A stretch of DNA of 44,284 bases from positions 1-44,284 of the forward strand of contig NW_026516432.1 of NCBI RefSeq assembly GCF_025602895.1. Reading direction: 5' to 3'. This DNA comes from Polychytrium aggregatum (Eukaryota; Chytridiomycota; Chytridiomycetes; Polychytriales). This document shows, in pieces, positions 14,941 to 44,284 of the stretch. The notes beneath the pieces are model-generated. The model saw nothing but the letters and a program-made list of their open reading frames with translations, was not told the DNA's origin and did not search any database. The number at the start of each line of letters is the position of its first letter. The stretch's first letter is position 1. Both the position numbers and the translations under genes were made by a program.

Positions 14941-14953
14941 TCCGATGCTACCA
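14941..14953 (-). promoter_or_regulatory. Element D1 primer-binding site (TGGTAGC tRNA type)
   Basis: Read on the - strand, TGGTAGCATCGGA follows the LTR with no gap. TGGTAGC is the complement of a tRNA end GCTACCA, as in initiator methionine tRNA; the implied acceptor stem AGCATCG/CGATGCT has the A1-U72 pair of eukaryotic initiators. The exact host tRNA is not in the window. Confidence 0.65.
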
Positions 14954-28015: not shown

Positions 28016-28021
28016 TTTCCC
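27978..28021 (-). promoter_or_regulatory. Element D2 -1 ribosomal frameshift signal
   Basis: GGGAAAC (28021-28015 on the - strand), 7-base spacer and the same bulged stem as in D1. Confidence 0.8.
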
Positions 28022-28821
28022 GACTTCATGGGGCACTCCTTGGCCTGGTGTCCCGGTCGGTGACAGAAGAAGCAGGAACCATGGCGGAGGTCCTCCTGCT
28101 TCTGTCTGTCCTTGGGGGAGACAGTGGCAGCTTGCTGGAACCGGGAGCGGGGAGGGCCACGAGCCTCCATGGCGTTGACGTCAACGTCCATGGGCTCAGG
28201 CATGGGTCTTGCGGGCGGGGCCGGGCGAGGCGGACGGGCTGGGACGTGATGAGACCGATGGCCGCCTGCCAGCTGCGGGTAGAACTGGCGGCCATGGTAC
28301 TGGACGTTGTCGAGGTTCTCGGCAACGTCCATCATCACGTCCAGGGACTTGCGGGCATCAGGGTTGCTGGCGATGTACTCTCTGATCTTGGGCTTGAGGC
28401 CCTTCTGGAAGAGGTACATCGCATCAGCAGAGCCCAGCTCCTCAATCTGGGAGGAGAGGTCTTCAAACTCCTCGATGTAGCGGGTCACAGAACCACGCTG
28501 CACGAGAGAGTATAGCTTGTCACGGGCAATGAGTTCAGCATTGGGGCTGCCGAAGCGGCGACGGAGGCGGTCCTTGAAGTCGTCAAACACACCTTCGCTC
28601 TGCTCGTCGAACCCTTGGCGGCGGTACCAACGGTACGCCTGGTCCTTTAAGCAGAGCTTGGCGGCGACGATGTGGTGGGTGGGGGCGACTTGGGCAGCAT
28701 CGAGGTAGTCCTCGAGTTGCTGCAGCCAGTCCTCCACCGAGGAGGAGCGGCTCTTCCCAGTAAACACTGGGGCACGGAAGGTCTTGAGGAAGGCTTCCGG
28801 AAGTGGGCGGGGGTTGCTCAT
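28000..28821 (-). CDS. gag: Element D2 Gag
   Basis: 273 residues, the same protein as D1 Gag as far as can be read, with the [14 protein letters not shown] zinc knuckle and the stop TAG in the frameshift stem. Intact. Its pol partner is broken by C2, so this copy cannot make full-length Gag-Pol. Confidence 0.92.
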   Translation of the reverse strand: MSNPRPLPEAFLKTFRAPVFTGKSRSSSVEDWLQQLEDYLDAAQVAPTHHIVAAKLCLKDQAYRWYRRQGFDEQSEGVFDDFKDRLRRRFGSPNAELIARDKLYSLVQRGSVTRYIEEFEDLSSQIEELGSADAMYLFQKGLKPKIREYIASNPDARKSLDVMMDVAENLDNVQYHGRQFYPQLAGGHRSHHVPARPPRPAPPARPMPEPMDVDVNAMEARGPPRSRFQQAATVSPKDRQKQEDLRHGSCFFCHRPGHQAKECPMKSGNGRPY

Positions 28822-28930
28822 GGCAGGGGCAGGCTCCAGGGACAGAGAGGAGAGTCGGTCGGCAAGAGAGGCGGGATCCAGCTTGAGGATCTAGAAAGAG
28901 GACAAACAGGACGAAAACAAGACGAGGATT

Positions 28931-28943
28931 TCCGATGCTACCA
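28931..28943 (-). promoter_or_regulatory. Element D2 primer-binding site (TGGTAGC tRNA type)
   Basis: Same TGGTAGCATCGGA as in D1, directly next to the 5' LTR on the - strand. Confidence 0.65.
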
Positions 28944-29252
28944 TGTAACGTCCACTACTGGGACGTTGGGGCAAGACGGGGAGGGAGGGGGTACAAGACA
29001 AGACAGGACGGGGCAGAACAGGGCGGTGCTAGGCTACTCTAGCGGACGGGTGAGCTCGGGGAGCACTTACGTTTATTCACGATAAAACCGAACTCCAGAC
29101 AAACGGGGGGAACGGGGGCAACCCGCAGGTATACCCTGCGGTGGCCTGCCTGCGGTGCGTGAAAACGCAAAGCGCAGCACAGGTCACGACCCACTGCGCC
29201 GCGCAGTACGCGCAGTACGCGCAGCACAGCGTCGGAGATACCATCTCCTACA
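28944..29252 (-). repeat. Element D2 5' LTR (309 bp)
   Basis: Same sequence as the D1 LTRs by eye; CACTT follows at 29253-29257. Confidence 0.95.
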
Positions 29253-30111
29253 CACTTCGACTGACCTGTCCAGCGCCTACCACCCCGAGTCGGATGGGCA
29301 GTCGGAAAGAGTCAACAGCGTCCTCGAAACCTTCATCCGATGTTACTGCGATTACCAACAGGACGATTGGGTCTCGCTTTTGCCGTTAGCTGAGTTCGCA
29401 TACAATAACTCGGCCCACTCGAGCACCAAGAGCACACCGTTCTATGCGAACTACGGATTCCACCCTGCCTGTGACTTCAAGCTGTCGACCCAGTCCGAGG
29501 TGCCTGCAGCCGAGGAGCGCATCGAAAAAATCAAGCAGCACCTCGAACAACTCAAGACTCACCTCGCGGACGCACAGTCCAGACAGAAGGCCAACGCCGA
29601 CAGGCACCGTAAGTCTTTTGACATTGCCGTCGGATCCAAGGTCTGGTTGTCTCGTCGCAACATAAGGACGCAGCGCCCAAGCGACAAGCTGGATTGGAAG
29701 CGCCTTGGACCCTTCGAAGTCGTTAGGGCGATCAACGAGGTGGCCTTCGAACTCAAGCTGCCGAAGTCGATGGCCCGGATCCATCCGGTGTTCCATGCGT
29801 CTCTGCTGGAACCGGTCAAGCCCAATGAGCTCCCAGGACGACAGGCACCTCCTCCACCGCCGATCGAAATTGACGGCCACGAAGAATATGAGGTGCAGGA
29901 GATACTGGACTCAAGGGTAAGGGGTAATAAGTTGGAATACCTGATCCGATGGAGGGGCTACGGACCAGACGAAGACTCGTGGGAATCCGAAGAGAATTGC
30001 AGGAGCGCACCTCAAGTAGTCCAAGAATTCCATCAACGGTACCCCTTGAAGCCTCGAACGCCGACCAAGACCAAGTCCGCAAGACACCCCAGACATAGGA
30101 AGGGGGCTTAG
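29253..30111 (+). pseudogene. pol: Element B pol, part 3: integrase end and chromodomain
   Basis: Resumes after D2 in frame with STDLSSAYHPESDGQSERVN, which supplies the third catalytic acidic residue (Glu of SERVN). The GPY/F-type C-terminal integrase region (LDWKRLGPFEVV, IHPVFHASLLEPV) and a chromodomain (EEYEVQEILDSRVRGNKLEYL) follow. The stop TAG is at 30109-30111, followed by a purine-rich tract ending at the 3' LTR (30123). The chromodomain places B in the chromovirus branch of Ty3/Gypsy; chromodomains in this group usually steer integration to particular chromatin. Confidence 0.9.
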
Positions 30112-30122
30112 GAAGAGGGTGA

Positions 30123-30359
30123 TGTAATGGGCACGCGGACAGGGAGCTCCGGGACGACCCGGAAGGCATCCCGAGGGGGCTTAGCCCGCGCCAAGGAGCG
30201 CAGGCAAGCCGGTCCGCTACCCCCCAGGGATGTAAATGCAAGGCGTCGCCCGCCGAAAATAAACCGGCGAGACGACAACACCGTCCTTCGCCTAGTAAAC
30301 CAGTCGTTACCCGCTCACTCCAGTCCGTCCGCTCTCGTCCAGTCCCCAGTCCTGTTACA
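30123..30359 (+). repeat. Element B 3' LTR (237 bp)
   Basis: Same length and, by eye, same sequence as 1315-1551. It is preceded by the purine tract GGAAGAGGGTGA and followed directly by element A pol. Confidence 0.9.
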
Positions 30360-31940
30360 CCTAAGGAGGGGGGTGACTCCCGTAGCTCCCCAAACACCCA
30401 GACCCTGCTGCCACCAAAACTCTTCGTTTCCGCCCTCCGAGCTGTTCCCGTTGCCCCCGAGTCCGAGGATATCGCCGTCCTCATCAAGTCAAGCCTCAAG
30501 AAGGACTCTACCTTTGGTCCGATCCTGTCCCAAGTCCTCAAGAATCCTGCCTCCTGTCCCGGCTACTCCGTCGACAACGACCTTCTGCTCTTTGAAGGTC
30601 TCGTCTGCGTCCCCGATGTCCCCGAGCTCAAGCGCAAGATCCTCGTCGAGTGCCACGACTCGCCGACTGCCGGCCACTTCGGCGTCGCCAAGACCTTTGA
30701 GCTCGTCTCCCGGACCTTCCACTGGCCGACCATGCGTCGTTACATCAAGGAGTATGTCTCCGGATGCGACACCTGCCAGCGGAACAAGCACTCCCGTCAC
30801 AAGCCATACGGACTCCTTGCCTCGCTCCCTGTTCCCGATCGCCCTTGGTCCTCAGTCTCGGTCGACTTCATCACCCAGCTTCCCGAGTCCTCTGGACACA
30901 CAGCCATCTGTGTGTTTGTCGACCGCTTCACCAAGATGGCCCACTTCGTCCCGTCAAGCAACGAGGCCAACGCCGAGGACACTGCTCGGATGTTTGTCGA
31001 GCATGTCTTCACCAAGCACGGTCTTCCAGACGATATCGTCTCAGACCGAGGATCTACCTTTGCCTCCAAGTTCTTCCAAGCCGTCCTGACCCGCCTCAAG
31101 ATCAAGCACAAGATGTCGACTGCCTTCCATCCGCAGACCGACGGCCAGACCGAGCGGGTCAACGCCATCCTCGAGCAGTACCTCCGCTGCTTCATCAACT
31201 TCCAGCAAGACGACTGGGCCCAGCTTCTCCCTCACGCCGAGTTCACCTACAACAACACCTCTCAAGCAACCCTCGGCTGCTCCCCCTTCTTTGCCTACAC
31301 CGGCTACCACCCTCGTTTTTCCGTCGCCCTTCCCCGCACCACCAAGAATGCCTCCGTCGCCGACGATCAAGCCCGAGCCATTCACTCCCTCCACGATGAA
31401 CTCAAGTTCAACATCGCCCTTGCCCAGGACTCCCAAGCCAAGTTCTACGACCCCGGCCACTCCCCTTCCCCTCCGTTCAAGGTTGGAGACCGAGTCTGGC
31501 TCTCTGCCAAGAACATCAAGACCCAGCGACCCACGGCCAAGCTCGACCACACCAAGCTTGGGCCGTTCAAGATCGTCGCTCAAGTCGGTTCCCGCGCTTT
31601 CAAGTTGGACTTGCCCTCGTCCATGCGCATCCATCCGGTGTTCCACGTCTCCCTGCTCGAACCCGCCGCCGACGACAAGATCCCAGGTCGAACGATCCCG
31701 CCCCCTCCACCCATCCAAGTCGACGGCCACGACGAATGGGAAGTCGAACAGATCCTGGACTCCAGGCTGTTCCGAGGTAAGCTCCAGTATCTTGTGCACT
31801 GGCGTGGCTACACGGTGATGGATTGCACCTGGGAGCCCGCCAGCAATCTTGCACATTGTCCGGAGCCTGTCGCAGCCTACCACTCCTCTCATCCCTCGAA
31901 GCCTGGCCCTCTCGGAGCTCGGGCCTTGAGAGGGGGGTAG
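30360..31940 (+). pseudogene. pol: Element A pol, right part: integrase and chromodomain
   Basis: Reading starts immediately after the B 3' LTR with PKEGGDSRSS, a linker typical of the region after RNase H. It continues through the integrase zinc domain (CHDSPTAGHFG and GCDTCQR, the H-H-C-C pattern), the catalytic core (DFITQLP, SDRGSTF, and the Glu of DGQTERVN) and a C-terminal chromodomain (DEWEVEQILDSRLFRGKLQYLVHWRGY). The stop TAG at 31938-31940 abuts the LTR and forms part of a purine-rich tract (GAGAGGGGGG), the likely plus-strand primer. Compared with the left part at 1-1314, the second half of RNase H and the connection (roughly 130-150 residues by family comparison) are absent, so A pol cannot be completed by simply removing B. 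Confidence 0.85.
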
Positions 31941-32541
31941 TGTCATGAACACCCTCTGCCTTTGCCCTCTTCCTTCCTTTGCCTTTGCCCTTTCCTTTCT
32001 GTTTGCCTGTCTTAGCGTTTTCCCTTCCTTCTGTTTGTTTGTTTCCCGCGCTGTGCTGCCTTGTTGTCTGACCGCCAGCACGCGCGCTGTCTGTGTTCCG
32101 TTCCCGCTTCCTTACTGTTGGTCATGGGATACGCCCACGACGCCGCCTCGACGCCGCCTGACGCCTTGGCGCCGCCATGCCGCCGCCACTGACGCCCGCT
32201 GACTCACGGATCCCGAGTCACGGCCGCCACCTGCTTCGCTCGCTGCCTCGCCCTCCCCGCCGCTGCTTCGCCCTCCCCGCCGCTGCTTCGCTCCTGCCCC
32301 CTCGCTCTGCAGCGTCGATCCTTGGCGCTCGCATAAATAGCCCTCCGACCAGCCTCTGTCTTTTGCCTTCGTCTTGCCACTTTGTATTTTTAGTATCCTA
32401 AGCCTTGGATCTAGAATAAAACTTTGGCTTCACACTTGACACTCTGTGTCCCAGTCCAGTCCCCGCTCCTCTCCCTACGTTCGAGTCTTGCATTAGGACT
32501 CTTGCGCACTTCCCTGTTTGCCCCGTTGTCCAGTCTTGACA
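31941..32541 (+). repeat. Element A 3' LTR (601 bp)
   Basis: It starts TGTCA and ends TGACA, perfect inverted ends, and follows a polypurine tract and the pol stop directly. It has a TATA-like CATAAATAG at 32332-32340 and an AATAAA at 32415-32420. A GC-rich 20-bp unit is repeated about 2.5 times at 32241-32290. The sequence right after it (CAGCG...) is the Fanzor coding frame. The 5' LTR is outside the window, so LTR divergence and primer site cannot be judged. Confidence 0.85.
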
Positions 32542-33273
32542 CAGCGCGCCAACGAGAAGATCGTGTCGTTCTCCAACAAGGAGTACCAGCATCGAACTGG
32601 CACCAGTCAGGCGACCAAGTGGATCCAGAGCACCCACAAGGCCCTTGGTCTGCAGGAATGGATGAGCACCACACCAAGTCCCAAGATCCCTGGGTTGGCT
32701 TCATTCCTGCGATACATTCGCCATGTGTTCGATGGAGACATGCTGGAGAAACAGCTGTACTTCAACCTGACCCGGCGACGGCGATTCAAGCGACTGGATC
32801 TCCACAGCAAGCGACAGCGCACCGTCCACGAGATGTGCAAGCAAGTCATCGACCAGGCACCAAGGGAGACCGAGGTGGTGATTGCCTTTGGGAATGCATC
32901 CTGGAAACAGGGGAAGGGATATGCCTCCAGTCCCAGGAGACTCAGGTTTGCCAAGTACTTTGAGCAATTCCACCATCACCAGAGACGCCCACCAGACCCA
33001 TCCGTCTCCAAGATCCATGTGTGCTCGGTGAACGAGTTCAACACATCCCAGGTATGCTCACACTGTCGGGAAGCCAAGCGACTCGAGTCACCCGAGTATC
33101 TTGATATCGAGAAACCACACTTTGTCCGGAGCTGTGCAAGCTGCCATACGCTGTGGGATCGAGACATCAATGCAGCCAGGAACATGATCTCGGTATGCCA
33201 GTCGATCATCGCCACAGGAGATCGACCGGGTGTATTCAAGACTGTGCTTCCGGACCCACCCAAAACAAAGTGA
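32542..33273 (+). pseudogene. Fanzor (eukaryotic TnpB-like RNA-guided nuclease), C-terminal part, truncated by element A
   Basis: 243 residues remain; the frame enters directly from the element A LTR without a start of its own. Seen: an IVSFSNKEYQHRTG segment typical of the region before RuvC-II; VVIAFGNASW (RuvC-II region); VNEFNTSQVCSHC, which carries the displaced glutamate reported for Fanzors and the first half of the zinc ribbon; a second CASC pair; and WDRDINAARNM, the RuvC-III aspartate motif. The RuvC-I aspartate segment and the N-terminal guide-RNA-binding domain are missing and should lie left of element A's 5' LTR. Fanzors are transposon-encoded nucleases found in fungi, protists and large DNA viruses. 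The stop TGA is at 33271-33273. Known family features are from memory; the motif reading is direct. Confidence 0.8.
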
Positions 33274-33384
33274 TTGCCAACCAGGACGGGAAACAATCGC
33301 ACGACCTGCCCACTGGGGTCTACGGATCAGCAGACCTGTGTCGCTGATGCCAGGAAGTGACTGTCCCGTTTCTTTCTGGTTTGA
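33274..33384 (+). ncRNA. Possible Fanzor guide RNA (omega/fRNA) and right end of the element
   Basis: 111 non-coding bases downstream of the Fanzor stop. They can fold: ATCAGC pairs with GCTGAT around an 11-base loop, GACC(T) with (G)GGTC just before it, and ACGGGA near the start with TCCCGT near the end, enclosing both. In TnpB/Fanzor elements the guide RNA scaffold usually lies at or after the 3' end of the gene and the guide is the flanking DNA. The boundary is inferred from where the next reading frame opens (33385). Confidence 0.3.
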
Positions 33385-33630
33385 CTGTACTCATACTCTC
33401 GGCGAGGCATCGAGACCCGGCGACGCCTGATCCGGTATGGTGTGAGGTTTCTAGAGGTGCTGCTGGACGATGACACGCTCAACATGACAGCCTTCCTTCG
33501 CCAGAAATTCCCTAGATATGGCGTTCCGTTTTTGATCATCAAGGAGGAGCCGTGGCAGCCATCGGAAATTGACGACAGTGATTACATCAAAGCGATGAAG
33601 AATTCGTGGGAGCGGTACTACACCGTGTGA
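33385..33630 (+). pseudogene. Gene remnant, possibly thioredoxin/glutaredoxin-fold, cut at its 5' end
   Basis: The frame opens after an in-frame TGA at 33382-33384 and ends at TGA 33628-33630, 4 bases from the convergent chitinase stop. It has no good ATG near its 5' end (first ATG at 33484). It reads LYSYSRRGIETRRRLIRYGVR..., then FLEVLLDDDTLNM and FPRYGVPFLIIKEEPW. The order of a short strand, helix, strand ending in an acidic loop, and a V-P followed by a hydrophobic strand resembles glutaredoxins, but the usual CxxC is absent. The missing N-terminus next to the Fanzor end suggests the transposon landed in this gene. The identity is weak. Confidence 0.35.
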
Positions 33631-33634
33631 TCGC

Positions 33635-34813
33635 TCAGTTGATCAGCGTCCAGAGCGATTGAGTGTATATAGATGGGAACCAGGTCACAATGCTAGTATG
33701 GGCCATGCGACATACATAGGTATGCCCGGCGTAACTGACAAAATCACCGACTTTGTAATTTATCCCGGTTGTCCATGGAGTCGCGTTGCTGGGTGGAGCA
33801 GGAACAGGCGCAGGTGCAGGGGGAGGTGCAGGCACAGGAGCAGGAGTAGGAGCTGGAGTCGGAGCTGGGGATGGGGCAGGAACGGGTGAAGGAGTAGGCG
33901 ACGAACCTCCGAGAATGCTATGGGCGGTGTTCAAGAAATCAAAGTCCTTTTGAGTAATCATAGACGAACAGGCGAGACCACCCGTTTGAGAGCTCTGGTC
34001 TCGTTGCAGAGCCCAAAACGAAAATCCAGCAAGTCCGTTTTGTTTGATGTACGAGCAGAGTGTCTTGCAGTCGTCGAGAGTAAACACTGATCCATCATCA
34101 TTCTGGCCAATCATTACAACCGGCATTATCATCTTATACAATTGCTGCGACGAAAACGTTGGATACACTTGAGCAAGCTGGCCCTTCAGCCCTTCCAGAG
34201 CATTAACTGCAGCACCCCCCATATCTGTTGATACGGATTCATCGTAAAAGTCCATGGTCATTAATCGAATGGTGTCGATTCGGATACCGGATGAAATAAA
34301 TGTCTTCAAACAAGCCAGGCCATTGTTGTCGAGGCCAGTGGGTAATGATGGGAGTGTGAGAGAGAACACCATAGAAGGGTACTGTTGCTGTAGTTTTGAG
34401 AATACCGCCGCTCGCCGTTGGTTAGTGGAAGTCTCTGCGACTGCAGAGCCCTCGATATCAAAATCGAAGCCCAGAGGCTTGAGGCTTAAATACATCTGTT
34501 CGATCTGATTGCATATTTCAGTATCGGTCAATGATAGATCGAATACATCCGGAGCAGCGGCCCCTCCAAAGGAGATAATAACATTACCACCACTCTGCTG
34601 GAACGCAGCTATATCACTCTGCATCGACTCCATCAAATTATTAAAATTGCCAGTTGAATCCCCAATAACGAACGCGAGGGTAGCAGACGTCAAACCGCAT
34701 TTTTGCTTTGCATCCATTAACGACGTTACAGCATAATACTGGCTATTCCCTTCAGCCCAAGCGTAAAAATAGGGGGTTGTTACGAAGGAGTTGGTCTGCT
34801 GGGTCGATGACAT
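33635..34813 (-). CDS. GH18 chitinase-like protein with C-terminal chitin-binding module (CBM5/12)
   Basis: 392 residues. Residues 10-295 form a GH18-type barrel: ISFGG (about 80-84, the SxGG motif), GFDFDIEG (115-122, with Glu121 as the catalytic acid of DxDxE; the first Asp of the extended motif is Leu), LMTMDFYDES (about 205) and a late SFWALQRD. A Pro/Ala/Thr-rich linker (about 305-345) leads to a 45-residue module with WTTGINYKVGDFVSY, YVCRMAHTS and LWTLI, the aromatic pattern of CBM5/12. No clear signal peptide is present, which fits a virion-packaged or lysis-released enzyme better than a secreted host one. It should cleave beta-1,4-GlcNAc chains. Its start shares an 81-bp divergent promoter with the SET-like gene; its stop is 4 bases from the gene remnant. 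Confidence 0.85.
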   Translation of the reverse strand: MSSTQQTNSFVTTPYFYAWAEGNSQYYAVTSLMDAKQKCGLTSATLAFVIGDSTGNFNNLMESMQSDIAAFQQSGGNVIISFGGAAAPDVFDLSLTDTEICNQIEQMYLSLKPLGFDFDIEGSAVAETSTNQRRAAVFSKLQQQYPSMVFSLTLPSLPTGLDNNGLACLKTFISSGIRIDTIRLMTMDFYDESVSTDMGGAAVNALEGLKGQLAQVYPTFSSQQLYKMIMPVVMIGQNDDGSVFTLDDCKTLCSYIKQNGLAGFSFWALQRDQSSQTGGLACSSMITQKDFDFLNTAHSILGGSSPTPSPVPAPSPAPTPAPTPAPVPAPPPAPAPVPAPPSNATPWTTGINYKVGDFVSYAGHTYVCRMAHTSIVTWFPSIYTQSLWTLIN

Positions 34814-34824
34814 TATGGTCAGTT

Positions 34825-34844
34825 TCTAGAGGTGGACCTCTAGA
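34825..34844. promoter_or_regulatory. Perfect 9-bp palindrome in the divergent promoter of the chitinase and SET-like genes
   Basis: TCTAGAGGT-GG-ACCTCTAGA lies 11 bases upstream of the chitinase ATG and 50 bases upstream of the SET-like ATG, followed by an A-run. It could be an operator shared by both genes or form a hairpin in the transcript. The half-site TTTCTAGAGGT also occurs at 33447-33457, within the gene remnant. An ATTTTGTTTTTTGTTG tract at 34859-34874 resembles ATTTTTTGTTTTG in the other divergent promoter near 38833-38845. Confidence 0.5.
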
Positions 34845-34894
34845 AAAAAATCAACGAGATTTTGTTTTTTGTTGGACACACTGTAGCAGCAGGA

Positions 34895-36010
34895 ATGTAT
34901 AGCAATTTGTTTTCCAATCATTCATCGACGTCAAAATATCGGTTCTATTATGCAGACCCAAGTCATAAGTGGACGTGCAATCTCAGATGTCTCCCTTGCA
35001 GAGGCCACGACGTCGACGGATCACCTTGTCACAAGATTAGCTGCCTTGGTGTTCCCTTCTGCGACAAGCACCTAGCTCTGATCCAGCACTTGCGTATCCA
35101 AGGCTCTGACCCGAGTCGTATGCGGTTGTTCGCGATTCGCCCTCCACCAGAAATTAGCGGCTTTATCGATCGATTCGACTTTGACTCTGGGCCTGTGTTC
35201 GAACAGGGGCAGGTCATCATTCAATTCGAGGGAGAAGTCATCAACCATGACCAGATGGTCCAACGCTACGGAGAGACTCTAGTCGGACCGTACACAGTTC
35301 AAGCGTCCGACTCTGGAGATCGATTTATTGACGCAGCATGCCAGCGAGGCGTTGCCGCGATCGCACGGACAACCGCCCAAGAAGAACGCGCAAATGCGGA
35401 ACTGGGGCATGGCTCTGAAGGAGCCGTCCTGCGAGCAACGAGGCCGATCATGAATAAAGAAGAGATCGTCGTCTTCACCATCTACCCCCTCCATGCGGAA
35501 GTCAATGATATCAGATACGCGACAAAGGATAATCCCAGCTTCGACGAAGATGCTTTCAAGCGGCAGGAGAAGCGAGCTGAATATGAACGCGACCCGATGA
35601 AATATCTGCTCTCGCAATCGAAATCGAAATCGCGGAGAAAGCGAGACGACGATGATGATGACTATGACTTCGAAGAAGACGATGATGATGCCGATTTCTG
35701 GAAAGATATCTTTTCGAGCAAAACGAGGAAGAAATCGGCAAGTCGGTCTTCCAAGAAGAAGGGAAATATGCTTTATACTCCTGGTCACGGATTTATACAA
35801 GGAATTACAATCACCCCGGAGTCATTGGGAATCACTAAGAAGAAACGGAAGAAGGCTAATGACGATTGGGACGACTGGGATGATGACTGGGATGACGATG
35901 ATGACGAGGAAGATAAGCCACGTAAAAAACGAAAGAGCAAGAAATCAAAAAAACGGAAGAGCTCCAAAAAATCTAAGAAGACCAGCCTGGAGGACTTCTT
36001 CTCGTTCTAG
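34895..36010 (+). CDS. SET-domain-like protein with N-terminal Cys cluster and acidic/basic tail
   Basis: 371 residues from the ATG at 34895; an upstream in-frame extension has only TTG. Residues about 22-50 hold a zinc-binding-like cluster (CRGHDVDGSPCHKISCLG, FCDKH). Residues about 85-205 resemble a SET domain: GQVIIQFEGEVINHDQM, then FIDAACQRGVAAIARTT in the place of the usual GN...RFINHSC, and VLRATRPIMNKEEIVVFTIYP ending in the conserved-type Tyr. The NHSC core is degenerate, so methyltransferase activity is uncertain. The tail (from about 245) alternates Lys/Arg-rich patches with acidic DDD and DDWDDWDDDWDD runs, suggesting nuclear or chromatin binding. SET proteins of large DNA viruses (for example vSET of a chlorella virus) methylate histone H3. 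The assignment is moderate. Confidence 0.6.
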   Translation: MYSNLFSNHSSTSKYRFYYADPSHKWTCNLRCLPCRGHDVDGSPCHKISCLGVPFCDKHLALIQHLRIQGSDPSRMRLFAIRPPPEISGFIDRFDFDSGPVFEQGQVIIQFEGEVINHDQMVQRYGETLVGPYTVQASDSGDRFIDAACQRGVAAIARTTAQEERANAELGHGSEGAVLRATRPIMNKEEIVVFTIYPLHAEVNDIRYATKDNPSFDEDAFKRQEKRAEYERDPMKYLLSQSKSKSRRKRDDDDDDYDFEEDDDDADFWKDIFSSKTRKKSASRSSKKKGNMLYTPGHGFIQGITITPESLGITKKKRKKANDDWDDWDDDWDDDDDEEDKPRKKRKSKKSKKRKSSKKSKKTSLEDFFSF

Positions 36011-36092
36011 CAGGATGGACTCGTTGTTTGGGGTTTTCATGGGGTTTTTATTAAGGGATAATTCAAGATTTACAGATCAAATACAAGAAACA

Positions 36093-36317
36093 TTAGAGAT
36101 ACTGAATTCGATCGCTATTGTTATGACCGTCAAAGAAGAGCTTGATCACATGCACAGGTTGAAGGTTATACGTGGTGGGGTCAAACTCAGGGTGCAGGAT
36201 AGTGCTCATGATCTTGCGGAGAAGGCCAGTGCGTTTGTCCCAGTCATTTCTGTTGGACACCACATCTCCAACGTTCGATTTGTTTCGTCCGTCGCCTCCT
36301 ACATCCACTGTAGCCAT
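36093..36317 (-). CDS. Small hypothetical protein (74 aa), uncertain
   Basis: An ATG 17 bases inside the end of the fibre gene opens a frame (MATVDVGGDGRNKSN..., ending KLFFDGHNNSDRIQYL) to TAA at 36093. Codon third positions are about 60% G/C, like the neighbours, and the composition looks protein-like. The opposite strand also has an open frame of 104 codons (36015-36329) starting 4 bases after the SET-like stop, so only one of the two, or neither, is real. No family is recognised. The A/T-rich bases 36011-36092 look intergenic and hold nothing else seen. Confidence 0.3.
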   Translation of the reverse strand: MATVDVGGDGRNKSNVGDVVSNRNDWDKRTGLLRKIMSTILHPEFDPTTYNLQPVHVIKLFFDGHNNSDRIQYL

Positions 36318-38800
36318 CGAACCACATAGGCATCCGTGTTGCTCGTCGTGTCCAATGCCGTCTGATAATAGAATACGGGCTGAGTGCTTGCCCATGTCAT
36401 TTGTATAAACGAACCCAGTGTCGCCAGCAGCTGAATGGTGACTGATTTCGAGCCTACCGGGTTCGCTGTTTTGCAAGCTAGGTAGACACAGGAAGTTCCC
36501 GTATCAGTCGAGCAACCAATAAAGATCAAATAGCACCCCCATGTCGGACCCGAGGACATCGTAACACTCGTTCCGTTGCGAGGGATTTGGATAGTGATCT
36601 GAGTAGCTGGCTTAATGTTGTTGATGGTAGGAACTGTGATGTTGGAGGAGAATGTGGCTGCCGCAGCGACCGCCAATGTACCCGTCAAGGTGGAATTGCC
36701 TGTCACTGCCAGGGTGCCGCCGACGCTCGCTGAGCTCGAAAGATTCGCGGTTCCGGTGACGACCAAGCTTGATCCGACATTGAGATTGGTTCCGACATAG
36801 ACACTCTTAGTCACGGAGAGTCCTCCATTGGTAAAGATCGAGCCTCCGGAGAAGCTCGAGTCGGTGGTATTTGTAACGACGATTCCGCCAGCGCTGGTCA
36901 ATGCCCCGGTCAGCGTGGACGTTCCCGCCACCGAAAGCGCTCCACCGATACTGCCGTTTCCGCTTGTATTCAATGTAGTAGCGGTGACACCGAGACCAAC
37001 TGTCAAATTTTTGGCTATGCCGACCCCACCGGAGACCACCAGAGCTCCAGTGCTGGTACTACTGCTGTCTGTGGTGTTCGAGATCGCGAGCGCTCCAGTC
37101 AAGGTCAACCCCCCAGCAAGAGTCGCCATCCCCGAGACATAGAGTTGCTTTGTAATCGACATACCACCGAGGGTATATACGCTACCGCCACTGGCGGAGG
37201 CGTCGACCGTCGACGTCACATTGATACCTCCAACAGAAGTCAGTAATCCAGTCAATGAGCTGGTGCCAGTGACAGACAACGTCCCTCCATGAGATGCATT
37301 ACCAGTCGTCGACATGGTGGTGGAGTTGACACTCGTGCCAACATAAAGCGATTTTGTAATGCCCATGCCTCCAGCGATAGTCACCGAGCCCGTCGTACTG
37401 GACGTGCTGTCTGTGGTCGATGTGGTGTTTACCTGTCCGTTCGCAGTAACGCTTCCGAGAGTGGTAGCCCCGACGACTGATAGCGTGGAATTCAGCGTCA
37501 CTCCTGCATTGAAATTGCTAGTTCCGATTATATTCAAATTACCCCCTACGCCAACCGTACCAGTGGTCGCGATGGTTGCCACCGTGATTTGAGTTCCGAC
37601 CCAGAGCGATTTGGAAACCCCCACCCCTCCAGCGACTATGAGTGATCCTGATGTCGTGCTCGTTGCATCGGTGGTGTTGGAGAGAGTGATGATACCGCTC
37701 GCATTAAGAGCAGCGAGATTGGATGTCCCAGCTACCCACAGGGACTTGGCTATACCGACTCCGCCCGCGACAACCAAAGCACCAGTCGAAGAGCTAGTCG
37801 AATCTGTAGTGCTCGAGATGGTCAATGCTCCTGTGAGCGACAGGCCGCCAGAGAGAGTGGTCAACCCTGTCACAGTAAGGGTTCCTCCGATGCTAGCATT
37901 ACCAGAGGCCGTTAATGTCGTGGTAGTCGCGCCTCCTCCGACATTCAGAGCGCCAGAGACACCTGCTCCGCCAGCTACCTGAAGAGCGCCAGTGGTCGTG
38001 CTCGTCGATGCGGTACTATTGGTGATGCTAACCACACCAGAAGCCGTCAAGCCAGCCAGAGTCGATGCTCCTGTCACACCGAGCGTGGATGAGAGGGTCG
38101 TCGCTCCTGTAACACTCAACGTCCCTCCATGGCTGGCGTTGCTGGTCGTCGCCAGGGTTGCCGAGTTTACACTCGTTCCGACCCAAAGCGACTTGGCTAT
38201 CGAGGCACCGCCAGACGCACGGAGCACACCCGATGTCCCCGCTCCAGAAGTGGCATCGGTTGTATTGGTTGTTGATATTACACTTGTCGATGTGATCGCC
38301 CCCATGTTAGCAATACCTGCGACGGTCAGCCCACCCCCAATAGTCACCAGCCCTGTAGTCGACACGGTCGCAGAGTTGACCTGTCCACCGATCCACATGT
38401 TTTTTGAGACTCCGATGCCTCCAGCCACAACCAGAGCACCTGTGGAAGTACTTGTCGAGTCCGTAGTATTCGTGATCGACAGTGCTCCACTCAAGGCGAG
38501 ACCTCCATTGAGTGAAGCGAGCCCAGTCACAGTCAGCGTCCCCCCGATGACGGCATTAGACGTCACCGACAGCGTGCTCGAGTTGAGGCTAGTGCCCGCC
38601 CATATCGATTTCGAGGCTGAAATGCCTCCGAGTACGACCAAAGCTCCAGAATTCGAAGTCGCATCAATCGTACTATTGACATTCAATGTGTTGTAAACGG
38701 TCTCGGTTCCGTCCACGTAAAGATTGGCTGCACCAGTCGAATCGGCGATGATGTCCACATCACCCTGGTACTCAATGTTATCCGGTACGTGAGTCGCCAT
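36299..38800 (-). CDS. Large repetitive fibre-like protein with about ten tandem repeats
   Basis: 833 residues from ATG 38800 (MATHVPDN); an in-frame ATG at 38935 would add 45 residues of atypical sequence and overlap the NADAR start, so it was not preferred. The body is about ten repeats of roughly 70 residues, each with a core like GALVVAGGIGVSKSLWVGTSVNS after a Thr/Ser-rich NTTDSTSSST stretch and a GGTLTVTGLT stretch. It is low in charge, rich in Gly/Ser/Thr/Val and predicted all-beta, like phage tail fibres and fibre-like proteins of large DNA viruses. The last ~95 residues (IQIPRNGTSVTMSSGPTWG... to VVRWLQWM) form a separate domain shared with the 39502-40335 protein. Likely role: virion surface fibre or adhesin. 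No signal peptide or membrane segment. Confidence 0.65.
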   Translation of the reverse strand: MATHVPDNIEYQGDVDIIADSTGAANLYVDGTETVYNTLNVNSTIDATSNSGALVVLGGISASKSIWAGTSLNSSTLSVTSNAVIGGTLTVTGLASLNGGLALSGALSITNTTDSTSTSTGALVVAGGIGVSKNMWIGGQVNSATVSTTGLVTIGGGLTVAGIANMGAITSTSVISTTNTTDATSGAGTSGVLRASGGASIAKSLWVGTSVNSATLATTSNASHGGTLSVTGATTLSSTLGVTGASTLAGLTASGVVSITNSTASTSTTTGALQVAGGAGVSGALNVGGGATTTTLTASGNASIGGTLTVTGLTTLSGGLSLTGALTISSTTDSTSSSTGALVVAGGVGIAKSLWVAGTSNLAALNASGIITLSNTTDATSTTSGSLIVAGGVGVSKSLWVGTQITVATIATTGTVGVGGNLNIIGTSNFNAGVTLNSTLSVVGATTLGSVTANGQVNTTSTTDSTSSTTGSVTIAGGMGITKSLYVGTSVNSTTMSTTGNASHGGTLSVTGTSSLTGLLTSVGGINVTSTVDASASGGSVYTLGGMSITKQLYVSGMATLAGGLTLTGALAISNTTDSSSTSTGALVVSGGVGIAKNLTVGLGVTATTLNTSGNGSIGGALSVAGTSTLTGALTSAGGIVVTNTTDSSFSGGSIFTNGGLSVTKSVYVGTNLNVGSSLVVTGTANLSSSASVGGTLAVTGNSTLTGTLAVAAAATFSSNITVPTINNIKPATQITIQIPRNGTSVTMSSGPTWGCYLIFIGCSTDTGTSCVYLACKTANPVGSKSVTIQLLATLGSFIQMTWASTQPVFYYQTALDTTSNTDAYVVRWLQWM

Positions 38801-38933
38801 GTTGCAGCAAGATCGTTTGCTGGAATATAGCATCATTTTTTGTTTTGCCATAGAATCGGGTCCTGTGCCAAATGCCTGGTGCGCTGTGTGAGGCTCAAAG
38901 ATTCTCAGCACGACCCACCAGTGAGAAGCCAGC
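38801..38933. promoter_or_regulatory. Divergent promoter region between fibre-like gene and NADAR gene
   Basis: 133 bases with an A/T-rich patch near 38825-38848 (ATTTTTTGTTTTG on the + strand). A similar T-rich tract with a single G lies in the other divergent region (34859-34874). No TATA box of the host type. If the 38935 start of the fibre gene were used, the two start codons would share a CATG palindrome. Confidence 0.35.
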
Positions 38934-39476
38934 ATGACGCAGAGTGATCGATTCTGCTTCTTTTCCTACTCTCCAGATATGCCACCCGGCCAAGGCGAAT
39001 ACGAGTGCGTCGCAGATGCCAGCATCTACACCAGCCTACAGCAAACCCCGAATTGGAGACGAGTACTGAGCCACTTCCACGTCTGTCCATTCGGCTTCGA
39101 AGGAAAAACGTACAATTCAATCGAACATGCATACCATGCAGCCAAGATCTCGATCGCGAATCCAGACGCAGCATACGAATTCACTCGAGACAGTGGGAGT
39201 GCACTAGGTCGGGGCGATGGTCTGGCTGCTAGACGAGCGAGGCAGTGTGTTCGCTTGTCGAAGAAGCAGGTCGATCAATGGGAGGCCATCAAAGCAGACA
39301 GACTCTACCACATGGCAAAAGCCAAGTACACTTCATGCGCAGCTGCTCGTGAGATCCTGCGCTGCACCGGGAATGCAGAGCTCTGGCATCGTCATCGCTT
39401 CATGCCCCAGCCCGAGCGATTCTGGCATCTGGAACGAGTTCGGAGCGAGCTCCCAGCCAATGGCGAAATCTTTTGA
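38934..39476 (+). CDS. NADAR-family protein (YbiA/RibX-like)
   Basis: 180 residues. The family pattern is visible: an N-terminal FFSYSPDMP strand, LSHFHVCPFGFEGKTYNSIEHAYHAAKI (the SNF/YPSxF...EHYYQAxK region), GSALGRGDGLAARRAR, a QWEAIKADRLYHMAKAKYTSCAAAREILRCTG helix pair (the M..al..Kf...LL.TG pattern) and the end ELWHRHRF. NADAR proteins act as N-glycosidases on ADP-ribose-linked or riboflavin-pathway substrates and occur in phages and large DNA viruses, where they may reverse ADP-ribosylation or salvage NAD. The start is a clean ATG. The next gene follows after 25 bases on the same strand. Family assignment good, substrate unknown. Confidence 0.75.
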   Translation: MTQSDRFCFFSYSPDMPPGQGEYECVADASIYTSLQQTPNWRRVLSHFHVCPFGFEGKTYNSIEHAYHAAKISIANPDAAYEFTRDSGSALGRGDGLAARRARQCVRLSKKQVDQWEAIKADRLYHMAKAKYTSCAAAREILRCTGNAELWHRHRFMPQPERFWHLERVRSELPANGEIF

Positions 39477-39501
39477 TTTTGTGTGAGCAGAACGCTACGA
39501 G

Positions 39502-40335
39502 ATGTCACACACAACCACAGGCGCCTTCCTCCAAGGCAATCTCGATCTCCTCAATGACCAAGGACTCACCACGGGAGGTAGTCTGTATACAGCGGGCACC
39601 ATTCAGGTCGCATCGACAACCGATTCTACCGCCGTGGGTGTCGGCTCTGTGATCACCGCAGGTGGGCTTTCTGTGGCTAAGAACACAAATCTAGGAGGGA
39701 CACTCACTATGGCAAGCGATTTTTCCATCCCCACGTTCGTGACGCTCTCCAAGTCGCTGAAGCAAGTCTACATCACGGGCCAGACGAATTTGAATGGATT
39801 GTTACTGAATGCACTGACCACTGACTGCACAGCGCTCGGAACAGGCTCTGTCCAGTTTTCCGGCGGTCTCTCGGTCCAAAAGAATCTATATTGCGGTGGA
39901 AGCATTGTCTGCTCTGGCAACATCACTGCATCGGGTGGTCTGACTGTGACCGGTAACACCTCTCTGCAAGGCACCGTCACCGGCTCGAACGGAATCGCCA
40001 TCTCACCACTGGTATACTTTCTTTACATCCCAACCAATGGAACTACGCTTACGCTTTCCGCTGGCCCAACGTCAGGGGTGTACCTGCTGTTTATTGGCTC
40101 AGCGACCGATCAGGGCGTGTACGAGATCGCTGTGGCATGCAAGAGCAACGTCGCTGTGACTGGGCTGACTCCAGCTCCTCCAATGTACAGCACCAATGTA
40201 TTGGCTTATACGGGTCTGAAAATCAATATCGACTGGAGTGGAACATACCTCAATTTCAACTACATCACTGCAAAGCCCAACAATGGAGGGAATAGTCACG
40301 ACAGCTACACACTCAAAATGTTTACATGGAATTAG
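39502..40335 (+). CDS. Second fibre-like protein, paralogous C-terminal domain
   Basis: 277 residues. Two or three copies of the same repeat as the large fibre protein ([38 protein letters not shown]) are followed by [19 protein letters not shown] and a C-terminal domain ([25 protein letters not shown]... to YTLKMFTWN) that aligns with the end of the 36299-38800 protein, including an aromatic penultimate position. It is a short-shaft version of the same fibre. Its stop TAG overlaps the stop of the convergent lectin gene by 3 bases (TTAG at 40332-40335). Confidence 0.65.
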
Positions 40336-41297
40336 GACTGATAAACGGCCCAGGGTAGACGCCATGCCTGCGACTCCCCACCATTGCAGTCCATGACCTG
40401 GATAGCTGTTGAGTTCGCTGCTGACCCACCCGCCCGATCCACACATTTGGCTGTGTTTCCTGCAAATTGCATGGTAGATCCGCCATTAATGACGTTAAAT
40501 TGTTGACTTGGTGTCGAAGGGTTGCAAGTCTTGATCACCATCTGGGTGCCATTTTGAAGATTGCCGCCATCGAGGCATTTGCCGCTGGTAAAATCCATAA
40601 TCTGCTTGGTAGTAGGGTTATAACGGAACGATTGCCCTCCGTGACCGTGACAAGCCCACATGGCCAGATTAGTCCCGTCCGCAGTACCACCTCCCCAGAC
40701 CGAAGCACATTGTGTTGGGGTATCTGCGGCCGGGATAAGACCCCAGTTGTTGATGAAACCAGACACGGGGATGCCAGCACCGGGAGGACCGGGTTGTCCT
40801 GGAATGCCTTGCGGTCCAACAGGTCCAGCGGGTCCAGTGGGTCCAGCGGGTCCAGCCGGCCCCATAGCACCGGGAGCACCTGCAGGACCTATCGGGCCTG
40901 GTGGGCCCTGCAAATCCTGCAACCCCATAGCCCCAGGAGGACCAGTGATTCCAGTCGAACCCGCAGATGTGACAGTACTTACCAGCCCGGTCGTTGCATT
41001 GGTGCTTGTGATGGTCGGGGATATCGCGGAAACGGCAGCCGGTGTCGACGACACGATAGAGGCGGGCGCCGGTGCTGGTGCTGGTGTGGATACAGGTGTG
41101 GGTGTGGACGCAGCCGTCGATGGTGATGCAGGTGCTGCTACTTGCTCCATACGACGAGTGAATGGGTTGTATTTGTAAGCGACACCGGATCCGGTCGACG
41201 CTGGTAGAAACGACTCGACTCCCTTCTTTGTATAGTAATACATGACCATAAATCCGATAACGAATATCGCAAAGTAGACGATCGGCGTTTGGTCCAT
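40332..41297 (-). CDS. Membrane-anchored collagen-like protein with ricin-B-type lectin domain
   Basis: 321 residues from ATG 41297. The alternative upstream ATG at 41342 would add 15 residues encoded by A/T-rich, promoter-like DNA. Domains: an N-terminal membrane anchor ([19 protein letters not shown], about residues 4-22), a Pro/Ala/Thr stalk (about 50-110), about twenty collagen Gly-X-Y triplets (about 115-175, one DLQ interruption), and a C-terminal beta-trefoil lectin (about 185-315) with QxF/QxW repeats GQSFRY, SQQFNV and SQAWRL and CLDGG/CVDRAGG turns. Architecture suggests a trimeric stalk on the virion or membrane presenting a sugar-binding head. Only the lectin fold is indicated; there is no catalytic toxin chain. 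Confidence 0.75.
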
Positions 41298-41355
41298 GGG
41301 CAAAAATATTGTATTGTCATTCAGTCTCGAAAAAAAGTACATGACTCAACTTCTC

Positions 41356-44284
41356 TCACACGCCCTTTTGCCAAGCTCTCTTGCTCTGTCTAACTGTAAA
41401 TAATTCACCAGCCGCATTCAAGCGCACCGAGTCCTGCCTGATCGTCCACACCTCTTGATCGTTCATCAGCTCTAGGACTCGCTTGTGTCCTATAGCAACC
41501 TGTTCCTGACACACGCCTTTTGACGACATTTTATGCTTCTGAGTTTCGCTATCGAATGCCGAATAGAGCTTGGGCGCTAATTCCACGAGCTCTGTGCCAC
41601 TGAATTCAACCTTGAAAAGACCAGGTGTTCGTCGAGTTGATGGATCTCGCGAGAGAAATTGCTTGGCTAGCTGCTCGTACCGAAATGGATGGCATGTGAC
41701 AATATCTTCCAGCCGATCCCCCGTGATCGCCATGTACAACGAGTCCGTATCCATGTGCATCGGCATGAATCGATCCTGTGTCGTCACTTGACACAAGAAA
41801 TCATAGTAAAACTGCAGCATGCGCAGCTTGGCGTAGCTGTATACGGCCAATCCAATCTGGATCGGAGAATGATGAACGATCCTTGTACATCGCCTGGTCA
41901 CTTCGTATAAATCGTTACCGAGAGGGTGTGCCTCGACATAGCTCGGCTCCATCACATGCTTCTGGAGATGTGTTGCTTCGACAACCCTGACCCGAGAGAA
42001 ATCCTCGCGCTTCATAAGCGATCGACCATATGCCGAATTCCCAAAGAGCTTCATCGTATCCGCCAGAATCGAGTCTCCTCCTTGCTGGCGAGCCTCAGTC
42101 ACTTCGTCAACGAACGACTGAAAACATCGGTTGGGCTCGAACGATACGAGTCTGTGGATATTAGTAATCACGAGACCGTGCTCGAGATACCATCTGAGCA
42201 GAGGCGAGAAAAGAATGATTTCCTTCGCATCCATAACGGATTTGATCTTGCCCTCCTCTGCATCCTTGATAAAGATGGGTGGAAAGTGGCTGAAGTGGTT
42301 CCGAAGCGAATCGGGAACGTGAATGTCGACTTTGGCAAATCCAAAGAATGCTTCTGGGAGACGGTATCGGTATTCCGAGTCGGGTGGTATGATGCGGTCC
42401 ACATAAGCACCAGTGGGCATCTCCTGCCCAAGACACCATAGATATAGCGCATTACCGTCCATGCCGATAACCCGCTGGCAAATGCGATCTGGGTTGCCAT
42501 GGATCAGTGTTTCGCCGGCCTTGGCAAATTCGTTGAACACCAGGCTCGGCCCCCCGACTACAGAGTCGCGAAGCTCGGTGTAAAGCGCCTGATCACTTAT
42601 GAGCATGAACGATGCATGAATGTCGTCGCGCAGCGGTCGGAAGAGATATTGCTCGACCAGCCCTGGAATACTGATGGCATCTTTGAAGACATGAATGTTC
42701 TTGGAGCTGTAGAATGACATGAGTGTCTCGACCGACCGACACAGCCCCTCGGCAATGGTGGCGGTGTAGCGGTCAATGTACTCGATCACGGTTAGATTCA
42801 CATCGGCTGGATGGGTGTGCACGGGGTGATATTGCGCCGAGAGTGTCCCACGCGAAGACAGGGTTTGAATCGAAAGCTTGTGCTGACTGAGTGGGTCATG
42901 CAGCTGATCAACAGAGACCAATGTCGTCCAGGGAAATGCTGGCACCTTGATCTCCGGGTGATATGTCTCAAAGAATGTCGACAGCGTCACACCCGGTGTT
43001 AGAAAATTGGTGAGATCCAAGAAGCGTAGCTGGTCGGTAATGAGTGCTTGGTAGCGTCTGCCTTTCTTGATGATGGAAACGGAATGGTTGGGCGATGCTT
43101 GATACAGCTGCGCCACGATTTGCCGATAAAGCATTACACCGAGATTGAAGCCGACGACAGGGAGCTGCGCCAGCCACCGCTGAAGATGAACGAGATTCAC
43201 CTTTGCACTTGAATTCGATGGATCCTTGGATTGCTCTCGGAGTCTGCCCAGCAAACCACGGTACTGCTTGCGCATATGGTTCTCTGCAAGCGCCTGTAAT
43301 CCTTGCAAATATCGTACGAGATCGCGGATCATATGTTCACCGCGGAAGACTGCATGCCCCGAGAGGACCTCGCGCATGATAGAGCTTGGTGCATCGGCGG
43401 CCCGGAAATTGGTTCGGGCATGTACTTGGAAGAGGTGGTGGACGTGTGTATCGGTAGTACCGTCGTCCATATCGTCGATAGTACCTTCAGCGCGTGGCTT
43501 GCGGATATGGATGGTATCGAGCACGACAAAGAATGGATATGGGGCGAGCTCGGGGATTCGGTCAAAGGTTCCCATTGGTGGTTTGTATAGCCCCTCCTGA
43601 AAGACCTGAACATCCTGCCCACCCTTGCATATGTGGCGGTGGAGTGCGGCTGGACCCGAATAGATACGGCTACATTTCTCACATGGGAACAAGGCTGGGT
43701 GTGGATCTGGTAGAAATGAGAAATGGCGATTGTCGACGAGGATGTTGAGGGTGCGTTTGTCCTTGTACTCTGCCTTTCCATCGCGGAAGAACCGGAGCGA
43801 CTCACGGTTCATTGGGTCGCGAATCCACAGACGAACCCGCGTCTCGAAGACATCCTCCATCTGCGGGAGCTCTCTGAGTCGGATGCCGGGGTATGTCTTT
43901 GGTGACTGGTCAGGGAGAGCTTTCCTGAAATACTTCTTAGTAAGCCCCTCGATGCGGTCATATCGCACGGTCTTGTTGGATCCATTCAGCTCTTCCCACT
44001 TCTGGAGTGCGGCTAGACAGCGAAAGAAGCACAGTTTGTCGTTCTTGTGGCTCCTGAGCTCCGCATAAAAGCTGGCACCGACACGGCCATAGGACGAGTT
44101 CAAGGTTCCATCATGGTGTCCATTGAGGTCGTCGTCATTTGGGACTTGGGCGTCGCCATCGTCACCATTATCCGGTTCGGGCACCACTGCATCTGCATCA
44201 GGAGCAGCCTCGCGATCCGTATCACCCAGCACAACCACATTCGCATCGGGTCGGATGGCCGGGGTGTTGTCAAAGTTGGTGATG
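41356..44284 (-). CDS. Family B DNA polymerase, protein-primed (DNA_pol_B_2) type; N-terminus outside window
   Basis: 975 residues in the window; the frame is open to the right edge, and in-window starts are only GTG or internal ATG, so the gene is 5'-partial. Order: acidic linker; a segment with NDKLCFFRCLAAL and later NRHFSFLPD that resembles the OTU-like cysteine-protease region reported in Polinton-type polymerases; a C2H2-like finger (CEKCSRIYSG...HRHIC, about 43625-43690); exonuclease region (PFFVVLDTIHIR in the ExoI place, where the DxE glutamate is not seen; VGFNLGVMLYRQ for ExoII; FLDLTNFL); motif A MDGNALYLWCL (about 42435-42470); motif B MKLFGNSAYGRSL (about 42015-42055); motif C DTDSLYMAI (about 41730-41751); and the KLYSAFD K-x-Y motif. 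Polymerase residues are intact. It should replicate linear viral or transposon DNA primed by a terminal protein. Confidence 0.85.
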   Translation of the reverse strand, partial: ITNFDNTPAIRPDANVVVLGDTDREAAPDADAVVPEPDNGDDGDAQVPNDDDLNGHHDGTLNSSYGRVGASFYAELRSHKNDKLCFFRCLAALQKWEELNGSNKTVRYDRIEGLTKKYFRKALPDQSPKTYPGIRLRELPQMEDVFETRVRLWIRDPMNRESLRFFRDGKAEYKDKRTLNILVDNRHFSFLPDPHPALFPCEKCSRIYSGPAALHRHICKGGQDVQVFQEGLYKPPMGTFDRIPELAPYPFFVVLDTIHIRKPRAEGTIDDMDDGTTDTHVHHLFQVHARTNFRAADAPSSIMREVLSGHAVFRGEHMIRDLVRYLQGLQALAENHMRKQYRGLLGRLREQSKDPSNSSAKVNLVHLQRWLAQLPVVGFNLGVMLYRQIVAQLYQASPNHSVSIIKKGRRYQALITDQLRFLDLTNFLTPGVTLSTFFETYHPEIKVPAFPWTTLVSVDQLHDPLSQHKLSIQTLSSRGTLSAQYHPVHTHPADVNLTVIEYIDRYTATIAEGLCRSVETLMSFYSSKNIHVFKDAISIPGLVEQYLFRPLRDDIHASFMLISDQALYTELRDSVVGGPSLVFNEFAKAGETLIHGNPDRICQRVIGMDGNALYLWCLGQEMPTGAYVDRIIPPDSEYRYRLPEAFFGFAKVDIHVPDSLRNHFSHFPPIFIKDAEEGKIKSVMDAKEIILFSPLLRWYLEHGLVITNIHRLVSFEPNRCFQSFVDEVTEARQQGGDSILADTMKLFGNSAYGRSLMKREDFSRVRVVEATHLQKHVMEPSYVEAHPLGNDLYEVTRRCTRIVHHSPIQIGLAVYSYAKLRMLQFYYDFLCQVTTQDRFMPMHMDTDSLYMAITGDRLEDIVTCHPFRYEQLAKQFLSRDPSTRRTPGLFKVEFSGTELVELAPKLYSAFDSETQKHKMSSKGVCQEQVAIGHKRVLELMNDQEVWTIRQDSVRLNAAGELFTVRQSKRAWQKGV

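Follow-up and report, generated by a model that had tools for sequence, protein, structure and literature searches.

A gene-dense block at the end of a Polychytrium contig

We analyzed contig NW_026516432.1 of the chytrid fungus Polychytrium aggregatum (assembly GCF_025602895.1, 64,678,306 bases in 418 contigs). The window is this whole contig (C147), 44,284 nucleotides long, and at its right end lies a block of virus-like genes that includes a Polinton-type family B DNA polymerase (PolB). A preliminary description of this DNA had portrayed the block as compact, intronless, and carried on both strands. In agreement, seven uninterrupted genes occupy both strands between positions 33635 and 44283, with a coding density of 96% and spacings between neighbors of 81, 288, -2, 25, -4, and 13 nt. 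The spacing of -4 nt, between the second fiber gene and the lectin gene, corresponds to overlapping stops that had been noted at 40332-40335. The earlier count of nine or ten genes was too high, as it resolves into these seven plus a 203-residue C-terminal piece of a Fanzor protein and the tail of a cut gene. A 4-nt gap at 33630/33635 is real, but the uncertain small open reading frame (ORF) of the earlier list is the tail of this gene, which was split by a transposon.

Domains were called as Pfam profile matches, judged by the curated cut-offs, and fiber-like proteins as PHROG matches. The leftmost gene (33635-34813, minus strand) encodes a chitinase with a GH18 domain (3e-9) and a CBM5/12 chitin-binding module (2.5e-11). 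It is followed by a gene for a SET-like protein with a charged tail (34895-36010, plus strand); the SET match is weak (0.028), and the protein is 29% identical (E=2e-13) to P0023, a paralog that adjoins an A22-type resolvase in the flanking DNA described below. Two fiber-like ORFs match one phage structural family, phrog_697: a long repetitive protein whose true start is uncertain (36299-38935, minus strand; 4.8e-15) and a second, shorter one (39502-40335, plus strand; 4.7e-5). Between them is a gene for a NADAR-domain protein (38934-39476, plus strand), with a PF08719 match at 3e-6, under the curated cut-off. The last two genes, both on the minus strand, encode an anchored ricin-B lectin on a collagen stalk (40332-41342; ricin-B 3.7e-17, collagen 6.3e-8) and the C-terminal 975 residues of the polymerase (41356-44283), which is cut by the contig end. 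Thus, the two fibers, the anchored collagen-lectin, and the chitinase with its chitin-binding module were recovered much as first described. The SET-like, NADAR, and PolB assignments also found matches, but the first is weak and the other two (DNA_pol_B_2 in the case of PolB) fall under their cut-offs.

Judged by their domains, the fibers, the stalked lectin, and the chitinase make a consistent group of candidates for passage through a chitin wall. A fungal host had been anticipated, and the EF-1alpha of the assembly is indeed fungal: it matches PDB chains 1f60 (yeast) at 897 bits and 5lzs_jj (mammal) at 862 bits, and it carries an insertion characteristic of animals and fungi, in the fungal version. 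Acanthamoeba, considered as a host because of GC content and style, was rejected on this evidence and because a profilin exon reached just 22.4 bits against profilin II, an Acanthamoeba chain. The related suggestion of a virus built for a chitin-walled host fits this identity, although it too is read from domains.

The largest ATG-initiated ORFs in the block encode 878, 834, 392, 371, 336, and 277 residues. When the block was simulated 100 times with a second-order Markov model, the longest ORF had a mean of 208 residues and a maximum of 456. Since only the two largest ORFs exceed every simulation, the case for the remaining genes comes from their domains, copies, and selection.

Giant-virus genes flank the block on other contigs

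On two further contigs, C96 and C24, the block runs past the point where the window ends, into an rve-type integrase and then RPB1, A22-type resolvase, and D5-type genes. The RPB1-like gene of C96 matches Rpb1_1 at 1e-80, is without a CTD, and occupies three frames. After it come a kinase, an SH3-bearing membrane protein, a dual-specificity phosphatase, the A22-type resolvase (Pox_A22, 2.1e-6), a second SET-like protein, and a D5-like fragment (primase C-terminal, 4.5e-10, under the cut-off), the series reaching 45.1 kb. On C24 it continues with an AEP primase-helicase at 81.4-85.8 kb (AEP_C962R 2.5e-5, DUF5906 1.4e-5) and a third SET-like gene at 88.7 kb (SET, 8e-9). To the left of the block, C96 carries VLTF3 (PF04947, 1.2e-46, 159 bits) and an A32 packaging ATPase (PF04665, 3.3e-6, 27.2 bits), both exceeding the Pfam cut-offs, as well as genes without assignment. 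Genome-wide, A32 (searched by protein) and VLTF3 (searched by family) were found once each, both on C96. The viral series spans at least 39 kb on C96 (5.8-45.1 kb) and 44 kb on C24 (46.7-91 kb). C24 is 1.04 Mb long; its viral DNA extends to ~91 kb and is followed by Ty3 elements and, from ~100 kb, by host-like genes, two of which were named by reading of the sequence. The viral DNA is continuous with the host chromosome as far as the assembly is right.

The absence of a packaging ATPase and an integrase, remarked on in the preliminary description, is therefore true of the window but not of its relatives, as the integrase lies on C96 and C24 and A32 on C96. Its proposal to extend the contig rightward, followed through C96 and C24, yielded the integrase and further core genes, but no major capsid protein (MCP) of family PF16903 on the contigs that carry the block and, on C96, no terminal inverted repeats of at least 18 nt other than those of the retroelements and the Fanzor transposon.

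No host gene is seen on the window contig, and the linkage comes from the assembly rather than from reads, so one could propose that a cluster of host genes, or contaminating DNA from free virus, accounts for the block. We consider this very improbable: the block is 96% coding without introns, its flanks hold viral core genes, C24 joins viral DNA, Ty3 elements, and host-like genes in one contig, and these Ty3 elements also occur within viral DNA. Where ordinary host flanks without other viral hallmarks might have been found, A32, VLTF3, RPB1, an A22-type resolvase, and D5-type genes precede the host genes near 100 kb of C24. The view that the block is of viral origin and not a host cluster was thus upheld.

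We favor, with a probability of roughly 60%, a reading in which a giant virus (Nucleocytoviricota) became endogenized in the fungal genome and left the block as a fragment that exists in several related copies, is decaying, and has been colonized by Ty3 elements and a Fanzor transposon. This reading draws on the observed gene content, copies, colinearity, and selection. Of the origins first suggested (a Polinton-like or giant-virus lineage, or part of one), we retain part of a giant virus. A stand-alone Polinton-like element is not the favored origin, since the core genes in the flanks make a free-standing Polinton unlikely as the whole story.

Related copies have diverged under selection

The PolB, fiber, and lectin genes are present on C147, C96, C24, and C127, with ~89-100% DNA identity per aligned piece. 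The PolB frames are open in the window and on C96. PolB is spread over three frames on C24 and reduced to its last 83 residues, at the contig end, on C127; fiber pieces on both of these contigs contain stops. The RPB1-like gene (C96:31848-35962; C24:60001-66000) is frame-broken at different places in its two copies, as if they had decayed independently, with assembly errors also possible. One stretch of C24 (43387-49000) is 100% identical to window positions 29253-34866 over 5,614 bases. EF-1alpha gave an equal top score on three contigs, which suggests that the assembly holds more than one haplotype. Different contigs may therefore represent the same locus, and C24 and the window may be two haplotypes.

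C24 and C96 align colinearly over the interval bounded by the chitinase and the D5-like gene, with insertions in C24 and identities of 73-99%. The integrase is 99% identical, the resolvase and SET genes 98.6%, the phosphatase 95%, the kinase and membrane protein 82-86% (79% in one short piece), and the D5-like gene 73%. This unevenness would fit exchange between virus strains.

Ratios of nonsynonymous to synonymous divergence (dN/dS) were 0.03-0.34 in five window-C96 pairs (second fiber 0.03, chitinase 0.117, PolB 0.157, lectin 0.265, NADAR 0.344) and 0.09-0.40 in five C24-C96 pairs. These ten pairs exclude the first fiber gene, the window SET-like gene, the integrase, RPB1, the resolvase, and all C127 copies; silent sites of the kinase pair are close to saturated (dS 1.07). 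For 7 of the 10, we compared nonsynonymous changes with a nominal expectation of 0.75 in a binomial test (p uncorrected). Five were below 0.05 (chitinase, 1.6e-17; phosphatase, 1.3e-7; second fiber, 6e-7; PolB, 2e-5; second SET-like gene, 0.03), and NADAR (p=0.057) and lectin (p=0.071) were not significant. The low dN/dS suggests that the differences arose mostly in working genes of related virus strains, and not after neutral duplication in the fungus.

A putative Polinton-type polymerase adjoins a putative rve integrase

PolB is 1250 residues long on C96 and 975 in the window, where it runs off the contig. It contains the strings GMDGNALYLW, KLFGNSAYG, and MDTDS, which we take to be polymerase motifs A, B, and C; in the window, these motifs lie at 42436-42465, 42025-42069, and 41734-41754, respectively. 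Toward the N terminus are a C2H2-like finger (43627-43683) and a D-K-L-C box (44020-44043), presumably the start of an OTU-type domain. Viral OTU domains are described in Polinton-type polymerases (PMC12721341). A phmmer search of the window PolB against PDB gave a single, uninformative match (E=0.58).

The integrase adjoins PolB divergently. On C96 it lies in two frames (27748-31017 and 30935-31873), the last of which overlaps the end of the convergent RPB1-like gene by 26 nt; on C24 it is a single open frame of 1410 residues. In a genome-wide search, PolB and the integrase were located only in this block. Because PF03175, run across the whole genome, matched only a polymerase on contig C189 and missed the window PolB, further divergent Polinton polymerases could have escaped it as well. 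Pfam recognized no Polinton-type MCP, minor capsid protein, or protease among the scanned genes, of which several are without assignment, and no dedicated Polinton capsid model was used.

The pair raises the alternative that the ~15 kb from the chitinase to the integrase (C96:16.5-31.9 kb) is a separate Polinton-like virus, virophage, or satellite inserted in a giant-virus genome, its recognizable capsid genes lost or never present. The juxtaposition of a Polinton-type PolB and an rve integrase, the Polinton-like size, and a third-position GC content (GC3) under that of the flanking viral genes would all agree with an insertion, yet no inverted repeats of at least 18 nt flank the pair on C96, the contig searched, besides those of the retroelements and the Fanzor transposon. 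Moreover, the overlap between the integrase and RPB1 leaves no element end there, capsid, packaging ATPase, and protease genes were not recognized in the stretch, and the two genes occur nowhere else in the genome. We consider such an insertion unlikely. The same lack of repeats and the RPB1 overlap, together with the SET-like paralogs shared by block and flank and the fiber and lectin relatives on an MCP-bearing contig (C5), lead us to infer that the PolB-integrase pair probably belongs to the virus itself rather than to an element within it.

Capsid genes and a classical polymerase lie elsewhere

Giant-virus MCPs of family PF16903 were found on contigs C5, C63, and C326, and not on C96, C24, C127, or the window contig. 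The C63 protein also matches PF04451, and its best PDB match is MCPv1 of 8h2i (334 bits). An RNase III gene adjoins the MCP. On C63 and C326, an IS630/mariner-like transposase lies within the short locus around the MCP, and none was seen in the C5 locus; the Fanzor transposon has thus probably also spread beside the capsid gene. C5 carries relatives of the window surface module at 80477-84969, where a fiber-like gene adjoins two anchored ricin-type lectins, ~50-65 kb from the C5 MCP. On C189 (28418-31759), an open gene for a classical viral-type family B DNA polymerase of 986 residues stands alone between copies of the window retroelements.

This distribution bears on a further alternative, in which C96 and C24 derive, over their entire viral stretch, from one mid-size virus intermediate between Polinton-like and giant viruses, whose sole polymerase would be the Polinton-type PolB, while the MCPs and the C189 PolB come from a different, true giant virus. 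In addition to the lack of a PF16903 MCP on the window contig, C96, C24, and C127, we keep this reading because Polinton-related viruses with giant-virus genes have been published: in the available parts of their descriptions, OmPLV combines pPolB, a resolvase, A32, and a collagen-like protein (PMC12721341), and an adintovirus-like element of Amoebidium has VLTF3. However, a series with RPB1, VLTF3, and D5-type genes that extends for at least 39 kb on C96 and 44 kb on C24 is rich for a Polinton-like virus, and the relatives of the fiber and anchored lectin on C5 link this MCP contig to the block in style. We regard a mid-size virus as less likely still than an inserted element.

The giant-virus reading and what it would imply

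Several observations weigh against an endogenized giant virus with its own PolB and integrase. Neither enzyme reaches its Pfam cut-off: the window PolB matches DNA_pol_B_2 at 4.7e-5 (22.9 bits against 25.8), and the integrase matches rve (PF00665) at 7.1e-5 (23.4 bits against 32.6) and an IS481 transposase model at 5.1e-5, far under the cut-off of that model. The third acidic residue of such integrases is usually E. Here it is D, and a long stretch separates it from the second, so that activity of the integrase is doubtful. AlphaFold without an alignment gave no usable structure (mean pLDDT 33.1 for the 975-residue PolB and 38.7 for 161 residues of its N-terminal part). The seven window genes and the integrase have GC3 values of 0.48-0.62, versus 0.66-0.85 in the eight other viral genes measured, which, with the Polinton size of the stretch, counts toward an inserted element as the source of the pair. 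Linkage of A32 and VLTF3 to the block was seen on one contig, across a transposon, and the MCP and classical PolB, being on other contigs, may come from another virus. Finally, no relative was confirmed in viral_contigs with PolB, VLTF3, A32, the integrase, an RPB1 piece, MCP, D5, or a PolB motif pattern as queries, although this silence is weak because the scans require short exact motifs.

Within the giant-virus reading, we tentatively propose, at somewhat less than even odds, that a fungal virus lineage with giant-virus core genes owns a Polinton-type PolB with an OTU-like box and an rve integrase and has used them for repeated self-insertion into the host genome, making it a natural hybrid. 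As suggested by their domains, attachment to the host surface would fall to the two fibers and the stalked lectin, and breaching of the wall to the chitinase and its chitin-binding module. The predicted polymerase would use a protein primer to replicate linear DNA, and the putative integrase, for which insertion ends were not found, would insert viral DNA into host DNA. Such activities would account for the repeated endogenization. How giant viruses enter host genomes is mostly unexplained, and a Polinton-type PolB and an rve integrase among core genes would suggest an integration route in fungi. If true, the virus would be a hybrid of two kinds that theories of giant-virus origin try to connect, and a direct example of gene exchange between giant viruses and Polinton-like viruses.

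Transposons adjoin and interrupt the viral DNA

The left part of the window (1-32540) is a nest of Ty3-type retrotransposons, as the preliminary description had recognized. It is defined by tblastn matches to three Ty3-type polyproteins (from 322 to 31904), near-identical direct repeats, and the junction revealed by comparison with C96 and C127. Between 3382 and 29243, sampled 300-nt retroelement segments recur as many as four times with 99-100% identity; much of the nest is therefore recent. The same Ty3 elements are inserted within viral stretches.

Next to the nest, positions 32540-33390 (plus strand) form the right end of a transposon carrying Fanzor and IS630/mariner-like genes. This remnant ends at a TA and was cut at ~32540 by the retroelement insertion. 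Its ORF at 32662-33273 encodes the 203-residue Fanzor piece, with a Fanzor/TnpB-type TNB domain (6.7e-11). A whole copy at C24:72539-76329 contains Fanzor and an IS630/mariner-like DDE transposase between imperfect inverted ends, with TA on both sides; the matching site on C96, near 40852, is without the transposon and slightly diverged in sequence. Fanzor, which had been counted with the viral genes, is thus a passenger. The DDE transposase of the transposon copy on C96 matches DDE_3 at 2.8e-24. Comparison with C24, C96, and C127 identified positions 33391-33630 (plus strand) of the window as the tail, ~79 codons, of the viral gene interrupted by the transposon. C96 and C127 lack this tail; there, the end of the transposon is found 228 nt farther along, at a different TA. 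Beside the Fanzor transposon of C96 (within 12083-16479), ~600 nt of the Fanzor end occur a second time, inverted and 96% identical, and may be a remnant of a nested insertion.

Comparison with known systems

Giant-virus islands were reported in Gonapodya and Allomyces in 2017, the Gonapodya chitinase adjoining an MCP (PMC5294986); a 1.5-Mb region of Rhizophagus holds PolB, RNA polymerase, and VLTF3 (PMC10640383); and PMC12993054 refers to "Mycodnaviridae" of zoosporic fungi, for which it cites a preprint by Myers et al. The Polychytrium DNA resembles these in its core genes integrated into a fungal genome. The partial descriptions compared do not mention a Polinton-type PolB or an rve integrase, and the words "integrase" and "polinton" are absent from PMC10640383.

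The punuiviruses of Chlamydomonas are thought to integrate through a retroviral-like integrase, perhaps derived from a virophage (PMC13236599, PMC12993054), and the likeness to our stretch is that of a giant virus with a putative enzyme of this kind. Their descriptions, as far as available, do not mention a Polinton-type PolB; they do report terminal inverted repeats and target duplications, whereas no ends were found here. For phaeoviruses, a tyrosine recombinase has been named as the integration candidate (PMC13236599). Viral insertions in Acanthamoeba were without mobility functions in the search made by their authors (PMC12210455), and an insertion in A. griffini is described with an MCP, a retroviral integrase, and GIY-YIG (PMC11702301). 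A Fanzor transposon also occurs in phaeoviruses and in viral insertions of Ectocarpus (PMC13236599). As here, it is a DDE transposon with Fanzor inside giant-virus DNA, but that transposon is described as belonging to the IS4 family with an 8-nt duplication, while ours is IS630/mariner-like with a TA target.

With Polintons/Mavericks, adintoviruses, and Polinton-like viruses, as described in the sources available, the block would share pPolB, and with Polintons also the rve integrase. Unlike in Polintons, the pair is surrounded by RPB1, VLTF3, D5-type genes, and kinases, and Polinton capsid genes and terminal repeats were not recognized. In the titles and abstracts retrieved by our searches of open-licence literature, we found no giant virus described with both a Polinton-type PolB and an rve integrase, which does not permit a claim of priority. 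Endogenous giant viruses of fungi are already known; the combination of this polymerase with this integrase is the unusual part.

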